Shown: positions 31,670 to 41,709 of the stretch, piece by piece
How positions within the stretch are numbered: the first letter of the stretch is position 1
How the letters are laid out: the number at the start of each line of letters is the position of its first letter
NCBI RefSeq assembly: GCF_005871165.1
Contig: NZ_SWKP01000003.1
Location: 496,001 to 560,000 of the forward strand
Source of the DNA: Maricaulis alexandrii
Lineage (GTDB): Bacteria > Pseudomonadota > Alphaproteobacteria > Caulobacterales > Maricaulaceae
DNA length: 64,000 nucleotides
Reading direction: 5' to 3'
Translations under genes and position numbers: made by a program
The notes under the pieces: model-generated
Database searches by the model: none
The model's input: the letters and a program-made list of their open reading frames with translations, nothing else
Told to the model about the DNA's origin: nothing

Positions 31670-33016
31670 ATGTTCGACAAGATCCTGATCGCCAATCGCG
31701 GCGAGATCGCCCTTCGCGTCCACCGGGCCTGCCGGGAAATGGGCATCCGCACCGTCGCGGTGCACTCGGAGGCCGATGCCAATGCCATGCATGTCCGCCT
31801 GGCGGATGAGAGCGTGTGCATCGGCCCGCCGCCCGCCGGCAAATCCTATCTCAACATTCCGGCCATCATCACGGCCGCCGAAGTGACCGGCGCCCAGGCC
31901 GTGCACCCCGGCTATGGCTTCCTGTCGGAAAATGCCCGTTTCGCCGAGATTGTCGAAGCCCACGGCCTCGCCTTCATCGGCCCGACCGCGGACCATATCC
32001 GCATGATGGGCGACAAGATCACCGCCAAGAAAGCCGTCATGGATGCCGGCATTCCGGTGGTTCCGGGGTCCGAGGGCGGCGTGGCGACCTATGAGGACGC
32101 CAAGCCCATCGCCGAGGAAATCGGCTATCCGGTCCTCATCAAGGCGGCCTCGGGTGGTGGTGGCCGCGGCATGAAGGTCGCGGAAACGGCCGACAAGCTG
32201 AAAGAGGCCATGCAGACCGCTTCGGCTGAAGCCTCGGCCGCTTTCGGTGATGGCACCGTCTATCTGGAAAAATATCTCGGCCAGCCGCGCCATATCGAGA
32301 TCCAGGTTCTTGCGGACACCCATGGCAATGTCGTGCATCTGGGCGAGCGTGACTGCTCCCTGCAGCGCCGTCACCAGAAACTGCTCGAAGAGGCCCCCTC
32401 GCCGGCGCTCAGCGACGCCGAGCGTGCGGAGATCGGTGAAGTGGTGCGCAAGGCCATCTCAGCCATCGGCTATCGCGGCGTCGGCACGATCGAATTCCTC
32501 TGGGAGAACGGTGAGTTCTACTTCATCGAGATGAATACCCGCCTGCAGGTGGAACACCCGGTCACCGAAATGATCACCGGTATCGACCTGGTGCGCGAAC
32601 AGATCCGTGTCGCAGCCGGCCTGCCGCTGGAGATCACCCAGGACGACATCCAGCTGGAAGGCTGGGCCATTGAATGCCGCATCAATGCGGAGAACCCGAA
32701 AACCTTCGCGCCTTCGCCGGGCAAGGTCACCGAGTTCCATGCGCCGGGCGGTCTGGGCGTTCGCCTCGATTCCGCCCTGTATGCGGGCTATTCCATCCCG
32801 CCGTATTATGACAGCCTGATCGGCAAGCTGATCGTCCATGGCCGGACCCGCGAGGAAACCCTCCTCCGCCTGCGCCGCGCCCTGGAAGAAATGGTTGTCA
32901 GCGGTGTTGAAACGACGATCCCGATCTTCCTCGACCTGCTGGAAGAGGCGGACTTCGTGAATGGCGACTATCACATTCGCTGGCTGGAGGAGTGGCTCGC
33001 CCAGCGCAATGGCTAG
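31670..33016 (+). CDS. accC: biotin carboxylase subunit of acetyl-CoA carboxylase
   Basis: A 448-residue ATP-grasp enzyme that carboxylates AccB biotin. Start block [20 protein letters not shown], the glycine-rich loop [13 protein letters not shown], and active-site [14 protein letters not shown] with the catalytic Arg/Glu pair are intact. Length is standard. It is followed by aat 29 bases downstream and shares a transcript with accB. Confidence 0.98.
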
Positions 33017-33045
33017 CGCCCCACGCCAGAGAAGGCGGAGGCTTG

Positions 33046-33729
33046 ATGCGCGGATTTGGCGCCCAGGACCTGATTAACTGCTATGCCCGCGGCGTCTTTC
33101 CGATGGCGGAAGGCCGCGAGGATCCGCGTATCTATCTGCTCGACCCGGACGAGCGGGGCATTCTCCCGCTCGACCATTTCCACATTTCGCGCAGCCTGAA
33201 AAAAACCGTCCGCCAGGACCTCTACCAGATCTCCATCGACGAGTGCTTCCACGATGTCGTGGAAGGCTGTGCTGCGCCGGCGCCCGGTCGCGAAGAGACC
33301 TGGATCAATTCCGGCATTCTCTCGCTCTACAGCGAACTCCACACGCTGGGCATCGCGCATTCCGTTGAGTGCTGGTCCGGCGGTGACCTGGTCGGCGGTC
33401 TCTACGGCGTGTCCCTGGGCGGGGCGTTTTTCGGCGAGAGCATGTTTTCCCGCCGCCGGGATGCATCCAAGGTGGCGCTCGTCCATTTGATCGCCCGCTT
33501 GCGGGCCGGAGGCTTCGTCCTGCTGGACACCCAATTCACGACTGAGCACCTGGAGCGTTTCGGCGCGGAAACGATCTCACGCTCAACCTATCAGGAGCGG
33601 CTGGGTGCTGCGCTGTCAGTGGAGGCTGATTTCAGGGCTTTGCCGGACGAGATCAGCGGCGCACAGGCCCTGCATCTCGCCTTGCCGCCCGCGCATCAGG
33701 ACCGGCAGTCCAGCACCCAGACATCATAG
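33046..33729 (+). CDS. aat: leucyl/phenylalanyl-tRNA-protein transferase
   Basis: A 227-residue enzyme that adds Leu or Phe to N-terminal Arg or Lys, marking proteins for ClpS-ClpAP. The FemX-like core is visible: NCYARGVFPMAEG, WINSGILSLYSELHTLGIAHSVE, GLYGVSLGGAFFGESMFS and LDTQFTTEHLERFGA. GGCGGAGG precedes the ATG. Its last 34 bases overlap the end of the convergent DUF2155 gene. Confidence 0.96.
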   Translation: MRGFGAQDLINCYARGVFPMAEGREDPRIYLLDPDERGILPLDHFHISRSLKKTVRQDLYQISIDECFHDVVEGCAAPAPGREETWINSGILSLYSELHTLGIAHSVECWSGGDLVGGLYGVSLGGAFFGESMFSRRRDASKVALVHLIARLRAGGFVLLDTQFTTEHLERFGAETISRSTYQERLGAALSVEADFRALPDEISGAQALHLALPPAHQDRQSSTQTS

Positions 33730-34169
33730 ACCGGGTGCTCCAGCGGGTTCTGCGCCGGACGTGACGCGAACATCCAGCCTGAAAAGATCTGCTCACCTTC
33801 GACATCCACGCCGAAACCGTCCGTGCGGCGGTCATTGATTTCGAGGAAGGCATAAGTTTCCGGTGTCTCTTCCGGCGGACGCTTGCGGCAATAATGGGCC
33901 GTGACCGACAACGCGCCGAACTGGGCCGTCTCACCGATCGGGATTTCAAAATCCCGGGTCCGGGCCGTCACCTTGTCCAGTCCGCGAAGGACGAGAAGCT
34001 CGCCCGGCTCGCTGGACAGAGGACCACGATCCTGCGCGTCCGGATCGTCCCGGCGCAGCATATCGGCGATGGCATCTCCATCCTCACCGGATTGAGACAT
34101 GTCCTGCGCCTGGACGGCAGACGCCATCAGGCCGGCAACACAAAGGGAAACAAGAAATCGGGTTTTCAT
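33696..34169 (-). CDS. DUF2155 periplasmic protein
   Basis: A 157-residue exported protein with signal peptide MKTRFLVSLCVAGLMASAVQ, cleaved after AQA. The conserved domain covers VLRGLDKVTARTRDFEIPIG, GALSVTAHYCRKRPPEETPE, DGFGVDVEGEQIFSGWMFAS and the end PVYDVWVLDC. Alphaproteobacterial relatives sit beside NDUFA12 as here. Function unknown. Only the start at 34169 yields a signal peptide; the frame is open far upstream but without coding character. It overlaps aat by 34 bases tail to tail. Confidence 0.88.
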   Translation of the reverse strand: MKTRFLVSLCVAGLMASAVQAQDMSQSGEDGDAIADMLRRDDPDAQDRGPLSSEPGELLVLRGLDKVTARTRDFEIPIGETAQFGALSVTAHYCRKRPPEETPETYAFLEINDRRTDGFGVDVEGEQIFSGWMFASRPAQNPLEHPVYDVWVLDCRS

Positions 34170-34210
34170 GACGCCCACCCTGCCGTGGGAATGTGGCCGT
34201 GTCGAGACGC

Positions 34211-34621
34211 TCACGCCTCGTCGGGGGACCAGGCCTGATAATCGCCGGATGCCGCCTGGCGCTTTTCGCTGACCAGAAGGCTGCCCGTCGGGCGATAGGC
34301 ATAGACCGTACCGGTGAGATTGGGATGGTGATCCTTCTCCCAGGCCTGGCGCGGCAGCGGCGCTTCGCTCGGCGGCGTGTCGAAAGTGTGGTGCAGCCAG
34401 CCATGCCAGTCCGACGGGACCCGCGAGGCATCGGCATAACCCTTGTAGACCACCCAGCGACGATTGCGGCCATCCGGACCGGTATTGCCGCGCTCGGTGA
34501 AGTAGCGGTTGCCGTATTCGTCCTCGCCAACCTTCTGGGCGCCGCGCATGGCAAGGGTCAGGAAAGTCCCCGGCGTGGCGTCTTTCCACCAGACGAAAAT
34601 CTTGGCGATTAATCCGAACAT
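34211..34621 (-). CDS. NADH:ubiquinone oxidoreductase subunit NDUFA12 family
   Basis: A 136-residue homologue of the mitochondrial complex I accessory subunit NDUFA12 (B17.2). Diagnostic segments are GEDEYGNRYFTERG, NRRWVVYKGYADASRVP and WHGWLHHTFDTPP. In alphaproteobacteria it is one of the few supernumerary complex I subunits. It is located 41 bases upstream of DUF2155 and is likely co-transcribed. The nuo genes proper are not in the window. Confidence 0.94.
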   Translation of the reverse strand: MFGLIAKIFVWWKDATPGTFLTLAMRGAQKVGEDEYGNRYFTERGNTGPDGRNRRWVVYKGYADASRVPSDWHGWLHHTFDTPPSEAPLPRQAWEKDHHPNLTGTVYAYRPTGSLLVSEKRQAASGDYQAWSPDEA

Positions 34622-34790
34622 GGTCTTGGGCTCCGAGTCGGGTAGGTCGTTCGTGGCTTATATGCCTGTGTGAACGCGTGGGGTCCAGTGCCGAACGCGG
34701 CTTGTCGCGTCTTCGGGTTTCTCCGCCCGGCTGCACCGCGTTAGACTCGTTCAACTCCCGGGCGATTCGGGCGTGTTTGAGGGTGGCTCC

Positions 34791-37730
34791 ATGCAGATCA
34801 AACAAGGCTTTGCTGAATGGCTGGCAAACCAGGGAGAGGCGTGCGCCCTGGAAGAGCGTACACTGGTTGCTGGCGGCGATCCCGACCTGCCCAGCGAGAC
34901 GCGTCGCCTCGCCGTGCCGGCCCATTGGAGCCCGGCTGCCGCCGAAACCCTGCTGCGCCTGCTGGATACGCCCCGCCCTGTCCGCACACAGCCCAAGCCG
35001 GGCGTGAAGGCGTTCGGGGGCCTGACACCCCACGTCGCTGATGGCGAAACCCGGCAGCTGGAATCCTCGCTCGATGCCGTCACCACGCGGCTCGCCGGCT
35101 CCCTGGCTTGGTCGGCCGCCCGTCAGGGTGCATTCGACGAGGCCAGCGATGCAGAAGCCCTGGCCCGGGAACTGGCCGCGAGCATCCAGGGCGGCTTCGT
35201 CACACCGGATGCCCACCTGATCCGCGAAGGCGGAGTCGATTGGGCCTATGGCGACACGCCGGCATCCGATGAAGCGGCCGACCTGCCCTTGCAGATCCGC
35301 GCCAAGTCCCGCACCGCACCGGGACAACTGCGCCGGGTCGCGGAAGGCGCGCTCCGCGCCTCGGTTCTGGATGTCGGTGCCCGGGTTACACGGGAACGCC
35401 TGGAAGCCATCGGCGAGGCCTGCCGGCGCTGTTCCGGAGACGAGACCGAATGCTTTGACCCGCGCCGCAATGCCGCCCTCGCCCGCGCCATGCGCCGGGC
35501 GCTCAAGGACGGCGTGCCGGAAGAAGCCGTGGAGCGAGCCCTCGCCCTGGCCCGCCAGGGCACAGATGATGACGCGCTGTCGTCCCTGATCCCCGATTCC
35601 GTGCCGCAGCGGCCCGCCGTGATGCATGTTCCTGCCGCACTCAGCCAAGCCGTCAAGGATGATGAGTCCTGGTCCTTCGATGAGGATGGCGGCACGGTCC
35701 GCGCCCGCGATTTCCGCTCCGGGATTGCTCGTTCCATCTGGAGTTTCGGTACGCCGGGCCTGGCCTTCCATGAAAACCCGCCCGTGGTCGGCCCGACGCT
35801 CTACATCAACCTGCCCGCCTTCCTGGATGAAGCCTCCCAGCTGCAGGCCGGCCTGCTGGCCGATGCCATCACCTATTGGGCCACGGTTCTCATTCTGAGC
35901 GCCTCCAAGGGTGCCTCCTCCGCCGGCACGTTGTCGCTGAACGGGCTTTCCGCCGTGCTGATGAGCACAGGTCTCGCCCATGACAGCGAGGACGGACGCC
36001 GGGCGGCCGCCGCAATTGGCCGGCTGGCAACACTGGCCCTGCGTGACGCCGCCTCGGAGACCGGCGCCAGCGCACCGGGTTTGGGCCCGGATATTGAGCT
36101 GGACGGCCTGCCGGAGGGCTTCGATCTCCTGGTCGACGCCCTCAACGCCGCTGACACCAATTTCATGCCCAAGGCCGCGATCGCCCGTCCGGGCATCCAG
36201 CTGGCCTGTCTGGTGCCACCCGCCGAACTGTCCGGCCTGATGGAGACGGACAGTCTCGGCGCCCTGCCCGTGAACGGAACGACCACGACCGACGACACCT
36301 ATTCCGGCAGCCGCCGGCTGCGGGTCTGCGCCCGGCGCGGACTGGAACAGTCCGGCCTGTCCGCCGCCCAGATCGAGGCCGCCGAAGATCACGCGGCGGG
36401 CCATGGCACGCTGCGCGGCGCCCCGGGGATTTCCCTGGACATGCTGCGCGAGCGCGGTGTGCCGGAAGACGCTTTGGAACGGCTGGATGATTCCATTGGC
36501 GAAGGGGCTTCGGTCCGCTTTGCCCTCAATCGCTGGACGCTCGGGGACCGGGTGTGCCGCGAGCTCGGCCTGCCGTCCGATGTCGTGGAATCCCAGGCCC
36601 AGTCCTTGTGCCAGGCCCTCGGTTATTCGGATCGTGATATCCGTGCGGCAGACCGCCATGCGCTTGGCACGGGAAGCCTTGACGACGCCCCCGGCCTGAC
36701 GGCCGACCAGCGCGCCGTTTTCGCACCGGTCAGTGCCCAGGCCCAGATGCTGATGGCCCAGGCACTGGAACAACAGATCGAGGGCGCCTGTGCGATACCG
36801 CTGGCCCTGGATGGTGATGCCACGATCGACGACGTCGCCAGCCTGATCGATCTGGGCGGCGAGCTGGGCCTGCGACGGCTCGACCTGCGCCGCACGGCAT
36901 CGGGTCTGTTCGACCTCCTGCCCGCCATCGATTTCGACAAGGGCGATTACGCCAATGAGCCGCCTGTCCAGGAACGCATCGTGGAACGCACGGTCGAGCG
37001 GGTCGTGGAGAAGCCGGCTGCCCGCCGCAAACTGCCGGACCGCCGCAAAGGCTATATCCAGAAGGCCACGGTGGGCGGACACAAGGTCTATCTCCACACC
37101 GGCGAGTTCGATGATGGCGAACTCGGCGAGATCTTCATCGACATGCACAAGGAAGGTGCCGCCTTCCGGTCTCTGATGAACAATTTCGCGATCGCCATTT
37201 CGATCGGCCTGCAATACGGCGTCCCGCTCGAGGAATTCGTCGACGCCTTTGTCTATACGCGTTTCGAACCGGCGGGCCCGGTCGAGGGCAATGATTCCAT
37301 CCAGCACGCGACCTCCATCCTGGACTATCTCTTCCGCGAACTGGGCGTGTCCTATCTGGGACGCGAGGACCTCGCCGAGGTCTCTCCGGACAAGGCGGAT
37401 CCGGGTGGTATCGGCAAGGGTGTGGAACAAGAAAAGCTGGCCCAGGAGGCCGCTGCCAAATTCATTTCGCGCGGTTTCTCGCGCGGCCAGGTGCCGGACA
37501 ATATCCTGATGTTCGCCAATGCCCCCAAAAAGGCGGCTGCCGGCGGCAAGGACGGAACCGATACGGGTGGTCATTACGAGCTGGAAGACCATACGGTCAG
37601 CCGACCAACGAGTGGCCGGGACATCACCGCCTATTCCGGTGATCCCTGTCCGGAATGCGGGCATTTCACGGTGACCGGCGGCGATGATGACACGCCGCGT
37701 ACCTGTGATGCCTGCGGCTGGCACGACTAG
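34791..37730 (+). CDS. degenerate class II ribonucleotide reductase-like protein (TSCPD)
   Basis: A 979-residue paralogue of vitamin B12-dependent NrdJ (usually about 1,200). The N-terminus keeps VPAHWSPAAAETLL (residue 42), the middle keeps CRRCSGDETECFDPRRNAAL (211-230) and RWTLGDRVCRELGLPSD. The TSCPD region (about 745-870) is highly conserved, for example GGHKVYLHTGEFDDGELGEI. A C-terminal zinc ribbon has Cys 953, 956, 972 and 975. Missing are the finger-loop NPCSE, the PTGTIG motif, the SGQNSNNSVR segment and the glycine-rich substrate loops. Catalysis therefore looks impossible. ATG 34791 has GAGGG upstream; GTG 34773 is an alternative. Role unknown. Confidence 0.85.
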   Translation: MQIKQGFAEWLANQGEACALEERTLVAGGDPDLPSETRRLAVPAHWSPAAAETLLRLLDTPRPVRTQPKPGVKAFGGLTPHVADGETRQLESSLDAVTTRLAGSLAWSAARQGAFDEASDAEALARELAASIQGGFVTPDAHLIREGGVDWAYGDTPASDEAADLPLQIRAKSRTAPGQLRRVAEGALRASVLDVGARVTRERLEAIGEACRRCSGDETECFDPRRNAALARAMRRALKDGVPEEAVERALALARQGTDDDALSSLIPDSVPQRPAVMHVPAALSQAVKDDESWSFDEDGGTVRARDFRSGIARSIWSFGTPGLAFHENPPVVGPTLYINLPAFLDEASQLQAGLLADAITYWATVLILSASKGASSAGTLSLNGLSAVLMSTGLAHDSEDGRRAAAAIGRLATLALRDAASETGASAPGLGPDIELDGLPEGFDLLVDALNAADTNFMPKAAIARPGIQLACLVPPAELSGLMETDSLGALPVNGTTTTDDTYSGSRRLRVCARRGLEQSGLSAAQIEAAEDHAAGHGTLRGAPGISLDMLRERGVPEDALERLDDSIGEGASVRFALNRWTLGDRVCRELGLPSDVVESQAQSLCQALGYSDRDIRAADRHALGTGSLDDAPGLTADQRAVFAPVSAQAQMLMAQALEQQIEGACAIPLALDGDATIDDVASLIDLGGELGLRRLDLRRTASGLFDLLPAIDFDKGDYANEPPVQERIVERTVERVVEKPAARRKLPDRRKGYIQKATVGGHKVYLHTGEFDDGELGEIFIDMHKEGAAFRSLMNNFAIAISIGLQYGVPLEEFVDAFVYTRFEPAGPVEGNDSIQHATSILDYLFRELGVSYLGREDLAEVSPDKADPGGIGKGVEQEKLAQEAAAKFISRGFSRGQVPDNILMFANAPKKAAAGGKDGTDTGGHYELEDHTVSRPTSGRDITAYSGDPCPECGHFTVTGGDDDTPRTCDACGWHD

Positions 37731-37790
37731 ACAGCCCGGCGGCGTGCGCCTTGCAGGGAACACGCTGGATTGACCCGGGAGTGCTCCACT

Positions 37791-38279
37791 ATGGCACGCG
37801 TTCTGATCGCTTTGGCTTTGCTGATTGCCGCTCCGGCCACAACTCTGGCCCAGGATGCGTCGCAGATTGCACGCGTCCAGGCAGGACAGTCCTGCCCCGG
37901 CTGCAATCTGTTCCAAGCAGAACTGGCCTATCGCGACCTGCCGGGCATCGATGTGTCCGGTGCCCGCCTGCGCCAGGCCAATCTCGCCCTGTCGACCATG
38001 AATCATGCCCGTTTCGACAATGCCAATCTGTCGGTCGCCAATCTGTTCGGCGGCCGGTTCACCGGTGCGAGTTTCCGGCAGGCCGATCTGACTCGCGCCA
38101 ATCTCGTCGGTGCCTATTTCGGCGGCGCGGACCTGACCGGTGCGACGCTGACGGGGGCCACCCTGTCCGGGGCCGAACTGCAGACGGCGCGCGGATTGAC
38201 GCAAAGCCAGCTCAACACGGCCTGCGGTGACAGCTCCACCCGTCTGCCCGCTGGTTTCACCATTCCCGGCTGCGACTGA
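37791..38279 (+). CDS. exported pentapeptide-repeat protein
   Basis: A 162-residue protein with signal peptide MARVLIALALLIAAPATTLA. After a CPGC motif near residue 40, pentapeptide repeats of the A(D/N)LxX type form a right-handed beta-helix: ADLTRANLVGAYFGGADLTG and others. The end, LTQSQLNTACGDSSTRLPAG, is a typical cap with the cysteines C-x-n-C. The next gene encodes a longer relative with the same CxxC opening and cap. Function unknown; a periplasmic structural or binding role is inferred. Confidence 0.85.
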   Translation: MARVLIALALLIAAPATTLAQDASQIARVQAGQSCPGCNLFQAELAYRDLPGIDVSGARLRQANLALSTMNHARFDNANLSVANLFGGRFTGASFRQADLTRANLVGAYFGGADLTGATLTGATLSGAELQTARGLTQSQLNTACGDSSTRLPAGFTIPGCD

Positions 38280-38404
38280 GCGCCGGGCCCGACCTGCCCC
38301 GCCTTTGCCACCAGGCCGAAACCCTCTACGCTTCATACGATATGCGGTGGGGTTACTGTGATTTAAGTCGAATTCAGTCAATGCCTGCCGTATCCCTTGG
38401 GGTT

Positions 38405-39703
38405 ATGCGCTACACGAAACGCGTCATTCTTTCGGCTTTGACCACGTCCCTGCTGGCCAGCATGCCAGCCTGGGCGGGGGATGATGAGCATCCGCGCCGC
38501 GGTCTCTCGATCGGCGGTGACTGTGAAAACTGCGACTTTTCCGAGAAAAACCTGGCCGGCGCGATCTTCATTGGTGCCAATTTCCAGGGCTCCACCTTTG
38601 CCGACAGCGAATTGCCCGGCGTGACCATTGTCGAGAGCCGGTTCAACGTCACTGACTTCTCCGATGCCCAGATGACCGGCGCCCGCCTGACCGGCGTCAC
38701 CTTCTCCCGCTCCGTTCTGGACGATGCGAATCTCAGCCAGAGCCATATCGAACGGGTGAATTTCTCGTCCGCCAATCTGAGCGACACCGATTTTTCCGGG
38801 GCCCAGATGGTGTTCGTGACCTTTATCGGATCCGAGCTCGACGGCACCCTGTTTGCCAATGCCCGTCTGCGCCAGGTCAATTTCCTGCGCGCCCGGATGA
38901 ATGATACCAATTTCCGCAGCGCCGAGCTGCGCCGGGCGAACTTTGCCGAAGTCATCGGCGAGGATGTGAACTTCCACGAAGCCGACCTGTCCGGTGCGAG
39001 CTTTGAAGGCGCCCATATCGACGATGCCGACTTCACCGGGGCCGTGCTGAGCGGAGCCAATTTCTCTTCGGCACAAATCACCAATGCCACCGGGCTGACC
39101 AAGACCAGTCTGACCGGCGCCTGCGGCAATGATGAAACCCAGATCAATTGGGACTTCGTCCTGCCGGCCTGCGATGTCGCCAATGGCACGCCCGCTTCCG
39201 CCTCGGCCCAGAGCTATTCCTATGTCGTGCGCTATGGCGATACGAGTGCCGGCGAAACGGTGGTCGAGCTGCAATCGCTGGAAAACACGCGGATCGAAGT
39301 GCTCACCCAGATTGCCGATGCGCTGGAAACCCATGCCGGTGATCTGGACCGCGACGCCATCCAGTCGGCCGCCAATGACGCCATGCGCGAGATTGCCCGG
39401 GCCGAACGCGCCCTGCGCGAGGCCCACCGGGACAGCGCCCGGGACGCCGCCGAACGCGAACGCCATCGCGAACTTCTGCGGGAACAGGTGGAGATGGAAC
39501 GCGAGCTGATCCGTGAACAACGGGAAATGGAACGCGAGCTGATCCGCGAGCAGCGGGAAGAGGAACGCCGCCGCATCATCGAACTCCATGCACTCGAGCC
39601 TGATCGCAGCCTGTTCCGTGACAATGACCTGCCCCGCTCCCGTCTTCTGGGCGAAGGCAGTCCGGACTTTCCGGAACCACCACCCCCGCCACCTCAGCGC
39701 TGA
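38405..39703 (+). CDS. exported pentapeptide-repeat protein with long helical tail
   Basis: A 432-residue protein. Start ATG 38405 gives signal peptide MRYTKRVILSALTTSLLASM ending AWA. A CENCDF motif opens a beta-helix of about 20 pentapeptide repeats (ANLSDTDFSG, ANFAEVIGEDVNFHEADLSG), capped by LTGACGNDETQINWD. From about residue 290 it changes to a charged helix with heptad-like EMERELIREQRE repeated, predicted coiled coil, and ends in Pro-Pro. Paralogue of the preceding gene, 125 bases downstream. Function unknown. Confidence 0.85.
   Translation: MRYTKRVILSALTTSLLASMPAWAGDDEHPRRGLSIGGDCENCDFSEKNLAGAIFIGANFQGSTFADSELPGVTIVESRFNVTDFSDAQMTGARLTGVTFSRSVLDDANLSQSHIERVNFSSANLSDTDFSGAQMVFVTFIGSELDGTLFANARLRQVNFLRARMNDTNFRSAELRRANFAEVIGEDVNFHEADLSGASFEGAHIDDADFTGAVLSGANFSSAQITNATGLTKTSLTGACGNDETQINWDFVLPACDVANGTPASASAQSYSYVVRYGDTSAGETVVELQSLENTRIEVLTQIADALETHAGDLDRDAIQSAANDAMREIARAERALREAHRDSARDAAERERHRELLREQVEMERELIREQREMERELIREQREEERRRIIELHALEPDRSLFRDNDLPRSRLLGEGSPDFPEPPPPPPQR
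39494..39559 (+). repeat. 33-bp tandem duplication in the coiled-coil coding region
   Basis: Bases 39494-39526 and 39527-39559 are near-identical copies (ATGGAACGCGAGCTGATCCG in both), encoding EMERELIREQRE twice. This shows the helical tail grew by duplication of an 11-residue unit. Confidence 0.85.
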
Positions 39704-39730
39704 CCTGGGCCCAGTTTACGCAAACAAAAA

Positions 39731-39758
39731 GCCCCGGCGGATAACCGCCGGGGCTTTT
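39731..39758. terminator. bidirectional terminator between pentapeptide gene and aspS
   Basis: 10-bp perfect stem GCCCCGGCGG / CCGCCGGGGC with loop ATAA, preceded by AAAAA and followed by TTTT, so it can stop transcription from both convergent genes. Confidence 0.92.
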
Positions 39759-39778
39759 GCTTGGCTTGTCAGCCCGGA

Positions 39779-41593
39779 TCAGCCCTTCTTGGCGTCCGGA
39801 ACCACGGTGCGCAGGTGAAGCTCGCGCAGCTGTTTCATCTCGACCTCGGCCGGCGCATTCATCATCAGGTCGCGGGCTTGCTGATCCTTCGGGAACATCA
39901 CGACTTCGCGCAGGTTTTCGACACCGGCGAGCAGCATGACGATACGGTCCACACCCGGCGCGATACCGGCGTGCGGCGGGGCGCCATACCGGAAGGCGTT
40001 CAGCATGCCGCCGAACTCTTCCTCGACCGTCTCGGCATCATAGCCGGCGAAGGCGAAGGCTTTCAGCATCACGTCCGGACGGTGGTTCCGCACGGCGCCG
40101 GAGGAGAGTTCCACACCATTACAGACGATGTCGTACTGGAAGGCCTTCAGGGCCAGCAGTGCGTCCGTGTCGGACCCGTCGAACTTGAGGAATTCATCCG
40201 GATCGATCTGCGGCATGGAGAACGGGTTGTGGGAGAAGTCGACCTTCTTGTTGTCCTCATCCCATTCATACATCGGGAAATCGACGATCCAGCAGAAACG
40301 GAACGTGTCCTTCTCGCACAGTTCCAGCTCGCTCCCGACCACATCACGGGCCTTGCCGGCGAAGCTGTAGAAGTCCTTGGGATCACCGGCGGCGAAGAAG
40401 ACCGCATCGCCCGGCTCCAGGCCGAGTTCGGTGCGCAGGGCTTCGGTGCGTTCCGGACCGATATTCTTGGCGATCGGGCCGGCGCCCTCAATGGCGCCAC
40501 CCTCTTCACGCCAGAAGATATAGCCCAGACCCGGCTGGCCTTCCTTCTGCGCCCAGGAATTCATCCGGTCGCAGAAAGCGCGAGACCCACCAGTCTTGGC
40601 CGGGATCGCCCAGACCTGGACCTTCGGGTTCTTTTCCAGCATGCCGGCAAAGACCTTGAAGCCGGAGCCGCGGAAAGTCTCGGACACGTCCGACATCTTG
40701 ATCGGGTTGCGCAGGTCCGGCTTGTCGGAGCCATACCAGCGGATCGCGTCGAAATACGGGATCTGGACGAAGGGCTCGTCCGGCACGGTGCGTCCGTCAG
40801 CGAATTCCTCGAACAGGCCCTTCATGACCGGTTCGATCACGTCGAACACATCCTGCTGGGTCGCGAAGCTCATTTCCATGTCGAGCTGGTAGAACTCGCC
40901 CGGAGCCCGGTCGGCACGGGCATCTTCATCGCGGAAACAGGGCGCAATCTGGAAATACCGGTCGAAGCCGGAGACCATGATCAGCTGTTTGAACTGCTGC
41001 GGTGCCTGCGGCAGGGCGTAGAACTTGCCCGGGTGCAGACGGGACGGGACCAGGAAGTCCCGCGCGCCTTCCGGCGAGGAGGCCGTCAGGATCGGTGTCT
41101 GATACTCGGTGAAGTTTTCCTCGACCATGCGGCGGCGGATGCTGTCGATGATCTTGGAGCGCAGCACGATGCGCTTGTGCAGGCTTTCACGGCGCAGGTC
41201 GACATAGCGGTGCTTGAGGCGAACCTCTTCGGACCAGTCCGGCTCACCGAAGACCGGGAGCGGCAGCTCTTCCGCTTCCGACTGGATCGACATCTCCGCC
41301 AGGCGGACCTCGATCTCGCCGGTCGGCAGGTTCGGGTTCACGGTCTCGTCAGAGCGGGCGATGACCTCACCGGTCACCGTGATGACGCTTTCAACCCGCA
41401 GGCGTTCGAGCGTGGCGAAATGCTCGCTTTCCGGCTCCAGGACGACCTGGGTCAGACCGTAATGGTCGCGCAGGTCGATGAAGAGCAGACCACCATGGTC
41501 GCGCTTGCGGTGAATCCAGCCGGAAATCCGCGCGGTCTGGCCGACGTCAGCCTTGCGCAGCTGGGCGCAGGTGTGGGTGCGATATGCGTGCAT
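39779..41593 (-). CDS. aspS: aspartyl-tRNA synthetase
   Basis: A 604-residue class IIb synthetase of the bacterial type. The OB anticodon-binding domain opens [20 protein letters not shown]; class II motif 2 is [19 protein letters not shown] and motif 3 is GVDRIVMLL near the end. The GAD insertion ([30 protein letters not shown]) is present. Start [18 protein letters not shown] at 41593. Whether it also charges tRNA-Asn cannot be judged without gatCAB information. Confidence 0.97.
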
Positions 41594-41709
41594 GGGTAAG
41601 CGTCCGAAAAACGGTGTTTGACAAGTTGCCGCGATGTGCCGGTTTGCGGGGTGAAATGTCAAGGAGAGCGGGGCGCGGGGCGCAGTTGTTTGCGCCCGCC
41701 TAGATCAAG

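Follow-up and report, generated by a model that had tools for sequence, protein, structure and literature searches.

A gutted class II ribonucleotide reductase homologue at the nrdJ locus of Maricaulis alexandrii: a predicted pseudoenzyme with a highly conserved TSCPD domain

The gene at positions 34791-37730 (+ strand) of a 64,000-nucleotide stretch of Maricaulis alexandrii DNA (contig NZ_SWKP01000003.1, positions 496,001 to 560,000; hereafter the window) encodes a descendant of the class II, B12-dependent ribonucleotide reductase (RNR) NrdJ. Based upon its sequence, we hold with high confidence that the product is a pseudoenzyme, i.e., a NrdJ homologue that is devoid of catalytic motifs and is under purifying selection. 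The explanation which we favour, and regard as reasonably likely when taken as a whole, is that this NrdJ-derived pseudoenzyme is kept for the function of its C-terminal TSCPD domain, probably in the control of deoxyribonucleoside triphosphates (dNTPs). We will refer to proteins of this form as gutted and to NrdJ proteins of the usual type as intact.

The loss of catalysis is seen in an alignment of 33 gutted proteins (from separate genomes as far as their labels show) with 25 intact proteins, numbered according to the intact protein L144. The roles of the cysteines were transferred to L144 by spacing from S. nassauensis NrdJd, where C933 and C945 are the proposed redox pair and four other cysteines the proposed zinc ligands (PMC5704485). 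In all 33 gutted proteins the beta-A Cys191 lies within a deleted segment, and none has a cysteine at the finger-loop position 468 (NPCSE), at its redox neighbour 479, or at positions 1205 and 1217, the C-terminal shuttle cysteines that form the redox pair; as judged from these columns, all five reaction thiols are lost. PTGTIG is likewise missing in 33/33, and in the five gutted proteins inspected for them the glycine-rich specificity/substrate loops (L144 166-267) and the SGQNxNNS segment either are absent or cannot be aligned. Movement of the finger loop to a shifted position was ruled out by the alignment columns and by a motif scan, in which neither finger-loop nor PTGT motifs were found anywhere in the 33 gutted open reading frames (ORFs). 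Deletions of at least 10 amino acids (aa) account for a loss of 217 aa from the window protein, and in the aligned sets gutted proteins are 769-1050 aa long and intact ones 1172-1355 aa. A first reading of this DNA made from its letters alone (the sequence-only reading) had described the protein as catalytically dead and short by about 220 residues, and it was right on both counts.

The frame of 979 codons begins with an ATG at 34791, or of 985 codons with a possible GTG at 34773, and it is open across 34773-37730 (+). A sequencing error was ruled out by the presence of an open homologue in all 12 genomes surveyed within the genus, among them that of the window. TSCPD is the sole Pfam family over its cut-off (residues 757-851; 48.6 bits against a cut-off of 22.8), and the NCBIfam model for class II NrdJ, PRK07562.1 (NF005736), gives 450 bits where its membership threshold is 1737. 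The only solved-structure sequences matching at E<=1 are those of R. sphaeroides NrdJ (7b9p and 7b9q), and 7b9p is also the top match (E 1.8e-31; template modelling score 0.52 by query length) of a fold search with an AlphaFold2 model of the whole protein, which has a mean predicted local distance difference test value of 78.8 and a predicted template modelling score of 0.71. The gutted protein shares its ancestry, locus, domain order, TSCPD domain and zinc ligands with the class II B12-dependent NrdJd enzymes (PRK07562; 7b9p), its best fold match, but it is shorter and has neither the active-site cysteines, finger loop, specificity loops and PTGTIG nor the redox pair. The gene and its parts, all on the + strand, are as follows.

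34791..37730, +, whole gutted NrdJ gene, 979 aa (ORF and family matches; possible GTG start at 34773)
34791..36200, +, N-terminal domain and catalytic-barrel remnant, residues 1-470, without catalytic Cys, finger loop or specificity loops (alignment; the AlphaFold2 model matches 7b9p)
35270..35280, +, junction near residue 161 of a 102-aa deletion (L144 166-267: beta-A Cys and specificity/substrate loops; alignment)
35772..35784, +, junction near residue 330 of a 25-aa deletion (L144 450-474: NPCSE finger loop; alignment)
36198..36908, +, PTGTIG-region remnant and insert with RWTLGD segment, residues 470-706 (alignment, AlphaFold2 model)
36909..37025, +, low-confidence linker, residues 707-745 (AlphaFold2 model)
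37023..37388, +, TSCPD/IscU-like domain, residues 745-866, of extreme conservation (Pfam, alignment, selection, AlphaFold2 model)
37380..37634, +, low-confidence tail, residues 864-948, with S893, G895, R898 and N904 invariant in alignment A1 (alignment, AlphaFold2 model)
37638..37727, +, C-terminal zinc ribbon, with Cys953, 956, 972 and 975 retained and the redox pair gone (alignment)

What has been kept lies mostly in the TSCPD/IscU-like domain. With columns counted as invariant when present in at least 95% of the intact proteins and as kept when present in at least 80% of the gutted ones, 68/72 invariant columns of the domain and 7/7 of the linker before it are kept; upstream of L144 residue 760 the count is 11/267, the insert has 9/57, and the tail and ribbon together have 7/18. 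The mean pairwise identity of the domain is 86% between gutted proteins (528 pairs), 82% between intact ones (300) and 80% between the two forms (825). Because these values are alike, the pace of evolution of the domain was unchanged by the loss of catalysis. Outside the domain the mean identity between gutted and intact proteins is 17-26%, except for the ribbon (45%). Hence, the claim of the sequence-only reading that the C-terminal parts stay close to active NrdJ holds for the TSCPD domain but not for the ribbon, though the four predicted zinc-binding cysteines of the latter are Cys in 33/33 gutted sequences. When the gene is compared with its nearest relative (86% aa identity) by Nei-Gojobori counting, the whole-gene ratio of nonsynonymous to synonymous rates (dN/dS) is 0.10; the N-terminal part has a value of 0.16, the barrel remnant 0.10, the insert 0.14 and the domain 0.00, with 122/122 residues of the latter identical at a dS of 0.70. 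In comparisons with three members of the genus that are further removed, for which dS is high, the whole-gene ratio is 0.22-0.26 and that of the domain 0.013-0.028. As estimated in this manner, selection is purifying in every region counted; relaxation along the whole length is not seen. The data support the earlier suggestion that selection maintains a non-catalytic role, with the TSCPD part as its centre.

The fold of the domain and its conserved residues bear on two other possible functions. An AlphaFold2 model of residues 741-979 is confident over its own residues 11-120 (block means 86-96), but a fold search of the PDB gave nothing at E<=0.001 for the domain. IscU entries do recur below significance, and a likeness to IscU has been reported (PMC9669993), in keeping with an iron-sulfur scaffold acting through this fold; however, the domain is without any cysteine in 32/33 gutted and 25/25 intact proteins, and we regard a scaffold of this kind as highly improbable. 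It is also unlikely, though less so, that the protein is a nucleic-acid binder, in which DNA or RNA is contacted by the basic domain (RR.GY.QK...GGHK) together with the zinc ribbon and a weakly YebC-N-like stretch, and the RNR ancestry is incidental. This proposal is consistent with the many invariant Arg, Lys and His residues and with sub-cut-off matches to Zn_Ribbon_TF (in L141) and to YebC_N, but the same residues are invariant when intact NrdJ is included, the YebC_N match reaches only 22 bits against a cut-off of 36 and is present in the intact L042 as well, and the lack of a significant fold match for the domain also speaks against it. The YebC/TACO1-like segment itself comprises residues 223-253 (window 35457-35549), from CFDPRRN onward.

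The window gene is the only one of its type in the genome. When all candidates were scored, no second match to the protein was found in the window genome (14/14 candidates), and the NrdJ model matched only the window gene and NrdA (6/6). A recent paralogue was thus ruled out by the absence of a second NrdJ-type gene and by a locus common to intact nrdJ; synteny indicates an orthologue instead, contrary to the sequence-only reading, which had inferred a paralogue and looked to a second, intact nrdJ. Its suggestion of mixed dimers with a true NrdJ falls for the lack of any other NrdJ-type gene in this genome, and its suggestion of B12 sensing finds no support in the data. Intact NrdJ is absent, but class I NrdAB is present: NrdA (637 aa) carries NLCAE in its finger loop and CLACQ at its C-terminus, no ATP-cone was detected in it (Pfam, E<=1e-5), NrdB was found, and NrdD gave no match.

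The order of genes in the neighbourhood is thiG, aroQ, accB, accC, aat, DUF2155, NDUFA12, nrdJ, pentapeptide genes and aspS. Within the order Caulobacterales, aat/DUF2155/NDUFA12 are upstream in 31/33 gutted and 6/13 intact loci, and a pentapeptide gene is downstream in 25/33 gutted and 11/13 intact loci. Since this conserved neighbourhood is common to both forms, the gutted gene occupies the ancestral place of nrdJ. Loci without any such neighbour or aspS are the gutted L140 and L143 and the intact L147 and L044 (the L044 stretch starts at the gene). A mobile gene was considered and rejected, as the plasmid and phage collections contain no place where 80% of the query is covered. No riboswitch or other Rfam RNA was found near the gene (window 33500-40000, gathering threshold). 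The flanking features are given below; the association of pentapeptide-repeat genes (window 37770-39703) with the 3' side of nrdJ is conserved in gutted and intact loci alike.

32992..33729, +, aat, leucyl/phenylalanyl-tRNA-protein transferase, conserved neighbour
33696..34202, -, DUF2155 gene, conserved neighbour, start not fixed
34211..34621, -, NDUFA12-family gene, conserved divergent neighbour
37770..38279, +, pentapeptide-repeat protein, conserved downstream neighbour of gutted and intact genes
38342..39703, +, second pentapeptide-repeat protein, downstream
39779..41662, -, class II tRNA synthetase gene (aspS), conserved flank

The distribution of the two forms was surveyed in 249 genomes of the order, the form being called from NrdJ-model scores and counted by hand from the score table. 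The protein query had matches in 238 genomes and NrdB was found in 245. The NrdJ model gave E=0 (intact type) in 63 genomes, 53 of them over its cut-off, the other 10 including some divergent and some partial sequences and a broken one (G193). Only the NrdA-like background was seen in 10 genomes, one (G002) was ambiguous, and the remaining 175 showed the low-scoring gutted pattern. There was no sign of both forms in one genome among the candidates scored (two per genome with the NrdJ model and up to three with the protein query, places being listed for a part of them); most E=0 genomes had three matches, the number expected if NrdJ is single and NrdA is in two pieces. All 49/49 genomes of family f5 are intact, f1 (the window's own family) holds both forms, with 14 intact, and f2-f4 are without any E=0 genome; we infer f3 to be the Caulobacteraceae. 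Sequences were inspected for the 33 aligned and 15 further gutted loci, all of which have a domain-bearing ORF lacking NPCSE and PTGT. Among the further loci, L177 and L178 are split or frame-shifted, and L181 and L182 are cut by contig ends. In the split L177 (G225), the domain has a 227-aa ORF to itself, and the N-terminal part is read in a different frame.

In a tree of 58 sequences, gutted and intact proteins were separated with a support of 100. Approximately unbiased tests on a 25-sequence subset, for which the program warned of too few replicates, rejected a clade of the f1 gutted proteins with all f1 intact ones (p 2.8e-07) and with the g9 pair only (p 1.4e-46). Long-branch attraction may lie behind this split. 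In a tree based upon the slowly evolving domain only, the two forms were intermingled with low support, and a four-gene species tree (30/46 loci) had weak deep support. Either a single gutting with later replacement or several gutting events with convergence could account for these results and for the presence of both forms in f1.

The promoters provide a possible connection of the gutted gene to the control of RNRs. In C. crescentus, NrdR is the RNR repressor and deletion of nrdR gives a spreading phenotype (PMC12186491). A single-site NrdR scan gave scores that were mostly at the level of shuffles and was replaced by a scan for tandem boxes. Within promoter windows of 360 nt, each gene received the score of its best pair of boxes spaced by 31 or 32 bp, according to a weight matrix derived from 24 nrdA promoters. 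Promoters of aat, accC, aspS, aroQ and thiG at these same loci, 132 in all, served as controls; their scores had a mean of -10.8 and a maximum of 5.5. In the first scan, scores above all controls were obtained for 9/9 gutted promoters of f3 (17.8 to 28.5) and 4/7 of f4 (6.2 to 20.5; the lowest f4 score, that of L131, was reached by 3/100 shuffles), for 2/12 intact genes (L044, with a short upstream region, was dropped), and for 0/13 promoters of f1, where the window scored -14.3, and 0/4 of f2. A second scan of 11 of the 15 further gutted loci (the two split and two cut ones were left out) added 6/6 for f3 (7.9 to 24.4), 1/2 for f4 and 1/3 for f2, bringing the totals to 15/15 in f3, 5/9 in f4, 1/7 in f2 and 0/13 in f1. 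The link of these predicted boxes to the NrdR regulon appears strong in the f3 lineage and is absent by scan in that of the window.

These results also bear upon whether the gene is a decaying relic, i.e., a class II RNR that NrdAB made useless and whose erosion continues, the drift of the domain being slow on account of its good folding. Lengths down to 769 aa, the 11/249 genomes without a match, and copies that are split, frame-shifted or internally deleted are as a relic would have them. However, the dN/dS of 0.10 overall and 0.00 in the domain, the zinc cysteines retained in 33/33 proteins, the gutted form still found by score in 175/249 genomes and the tandem boxes retained in 15/15 f3 promoters scanned make such a relic quite improbable.

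A role of the pseudoenzyme in dNTP metabolism is probable, though by no means certain. We take the protein to be the single-copy orthologue of class II NrdJ, which lost catalysis in place in a setting where class I NrdAB can carry dNTP synthesis, and which is probably kept for the function of the TSCPD/IscU-like domain in its C-terminal part, the zinc ribbon being structural. According to the mechanism we propose, the domain would be a purine-dNTP-responsive oligomerising module, the protein may serve as a regulator or scaffold of dNTP supply that acts on NrdAB or on dNTP use, and in some lineages it would be made as part of the NrdR response. In active NrdJd, the cysteine-rich domain (CRD) is needed for the oligomers induced by dATP/dGTP (PMC5704485). 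A non-catalytic dNTP-control module is favoured because the oligomerisation domain is kept while the parts for chemistry, the specificity site and electron transfer are gone; a specific dATP/dGTP mechanism, for which active NrdJd is the analogy, we put forward only tentatively. Still more speculative, and in our view rather doubtful, is a general proposal in which the TSCPD domain of class II RNRs senses purine dNTPs and oligomerises as a module in its own right. Most surveyed members of the order would then have discarded the surrounding RNR but retained the sensor, using it to tune the class I enzyme or entry into S phase; in Caulobacter, NrdR would control it.

The domain and ribbon of the gutted protein are also found in NrdJb and the CRD (P. 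aeruginosa; S. nassauensis NrdJd, PMC5704485; IscU-like domain and zinc finger, PMC9669993), but here the domain is fused to a gutted barrel and both redox cysteines are missing. The layout of NrdJb (PMC9669993) and the ability of electrons to cross subunits in active NrdJd (PMC5704485) suggest that the protein might act in trans on class I NrdA, supplying electrons or help with assembly as NrdJb does for NrdJa. However, the redox pair is lost in 33/33 gutted proteins, the NrdA of the window genome has its own C-terminal CLACQ, and six stand-alone viral copies of the domain retain all six cysteines, and a partnership of this kind is very unlikely. The presence of two NrdJd enzymes, just one of them with the CRD, in a few Alphaproteobacteria (PMC5704485) is a different case from the gutted form. 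The role of the IscU-like/TSCPD domain in class II RNRs is unreported, and no report of a gutted or inactive bacterial NrdJ was recognised among the open-access papers listed by literature searches. Catalytically inactive homologues of the RNR large subunit, kept for other roles, occur in some herpesviruses; these are viral and of class I. As the gutted gene separates the function of the IscU-like domain from catalysis and electron transfer, it makes the role of this domain directly testable.

The gutted form very probably includes a gene of C. crescentus, CCNA_01966. This gene is named NrdJ within the nucleotide-reduction pathway, dNTP production being listed among the uses of B12 (PMC6538847). 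In print it is treated as a working B12-dependent enzyme; here it is assigned to the gutted form by synteny. An antisense signal inside CCNA_01966 is on the minus strand (2110225-2110275; PMC5869019), which places the gene on the plus strand, and uppS (CCNA_01996) is on the minus strand at 2142908-2143687 (PMC5869019). In the f3 genome G161 the gutted gene is on the plus strand at 2121184-2123613 and uppS, on the minus strand, ends at 2155843. The distance between them is 32-35 kb, with the same order and relative orientation in G161 and C. crescentus. A C. vibrioides control had TSCPD over the cut-off and no match over the NrdJ cut-off. A widely used enzyme annotation would then be wrong for most of the genomes surveyed from an order that holds a major cell-cycle model, and the view that Caulobacter makes dNTPs with the help of B12 would need correction.

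Several observations weigh against the explanation that the pseudoenzyme is kept for a TSCPD-domain function in dNTP control. The domain is equally conserved in the intact enzymes (82%), and its conservation therefore marks a kept function and not a new one. All 13 gutted promoters of f1, that of the window included, and 6/7 of f2 are without a tandem box above the controls, and since none is seen in f1 the dNTP link is not established for the window gene. The 11 genomes of 249 without a match to the protein, together with G193, are also without a match to the domain, and the protein is thus dispensable in some genomes. Further, one copy has lost part of the domain (L179) and another is split (L177), and G236 (87% complete), one of the four genomes without an NrdB match, scores as gutted. 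Lastly, disruption of nonessential B12-related genes, among which NrdJ may be counted, is reported to have raised fitness (PMC6538847).

Some further observations concern individual copies and related sequences. In L179 (G037), the part of the otherwise near-invariant TSCPD domain is lost within one open frame, and the promoter still has tandem boxes (24.3). L189 (G193, family f1) is the reverse of the window's case, its first 754 residues being intact-type NrdJ with no TSCPD-domain match; the piece that follows overlaps the first piece in the alignment. Six viral contigs (L195, L196, L198, L199, L200 and L201) carry the TSCPD domain in stand-alone ORFs that are 210-251 aa long and retain all six cysteines; neither NPCSE/NLCSE nor PTGTI is present in the stretches analysed, and the ORFs are NrdJb-like viral genes. 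Outside the order, a survey of the class found that genus g204 of family f92 and families f12, f87, f102, f107, f134, f142 and f155 score between the background and intact NrdJ (about 1e-56 to 1e-143), possibly representing other gutted or other short NrdJ forms. In the window itself, an antisense open frame of 1561 codons (33696-38381, - strand) spans the whole gene and reaches DUF2155, and it is most likely a chance frame.

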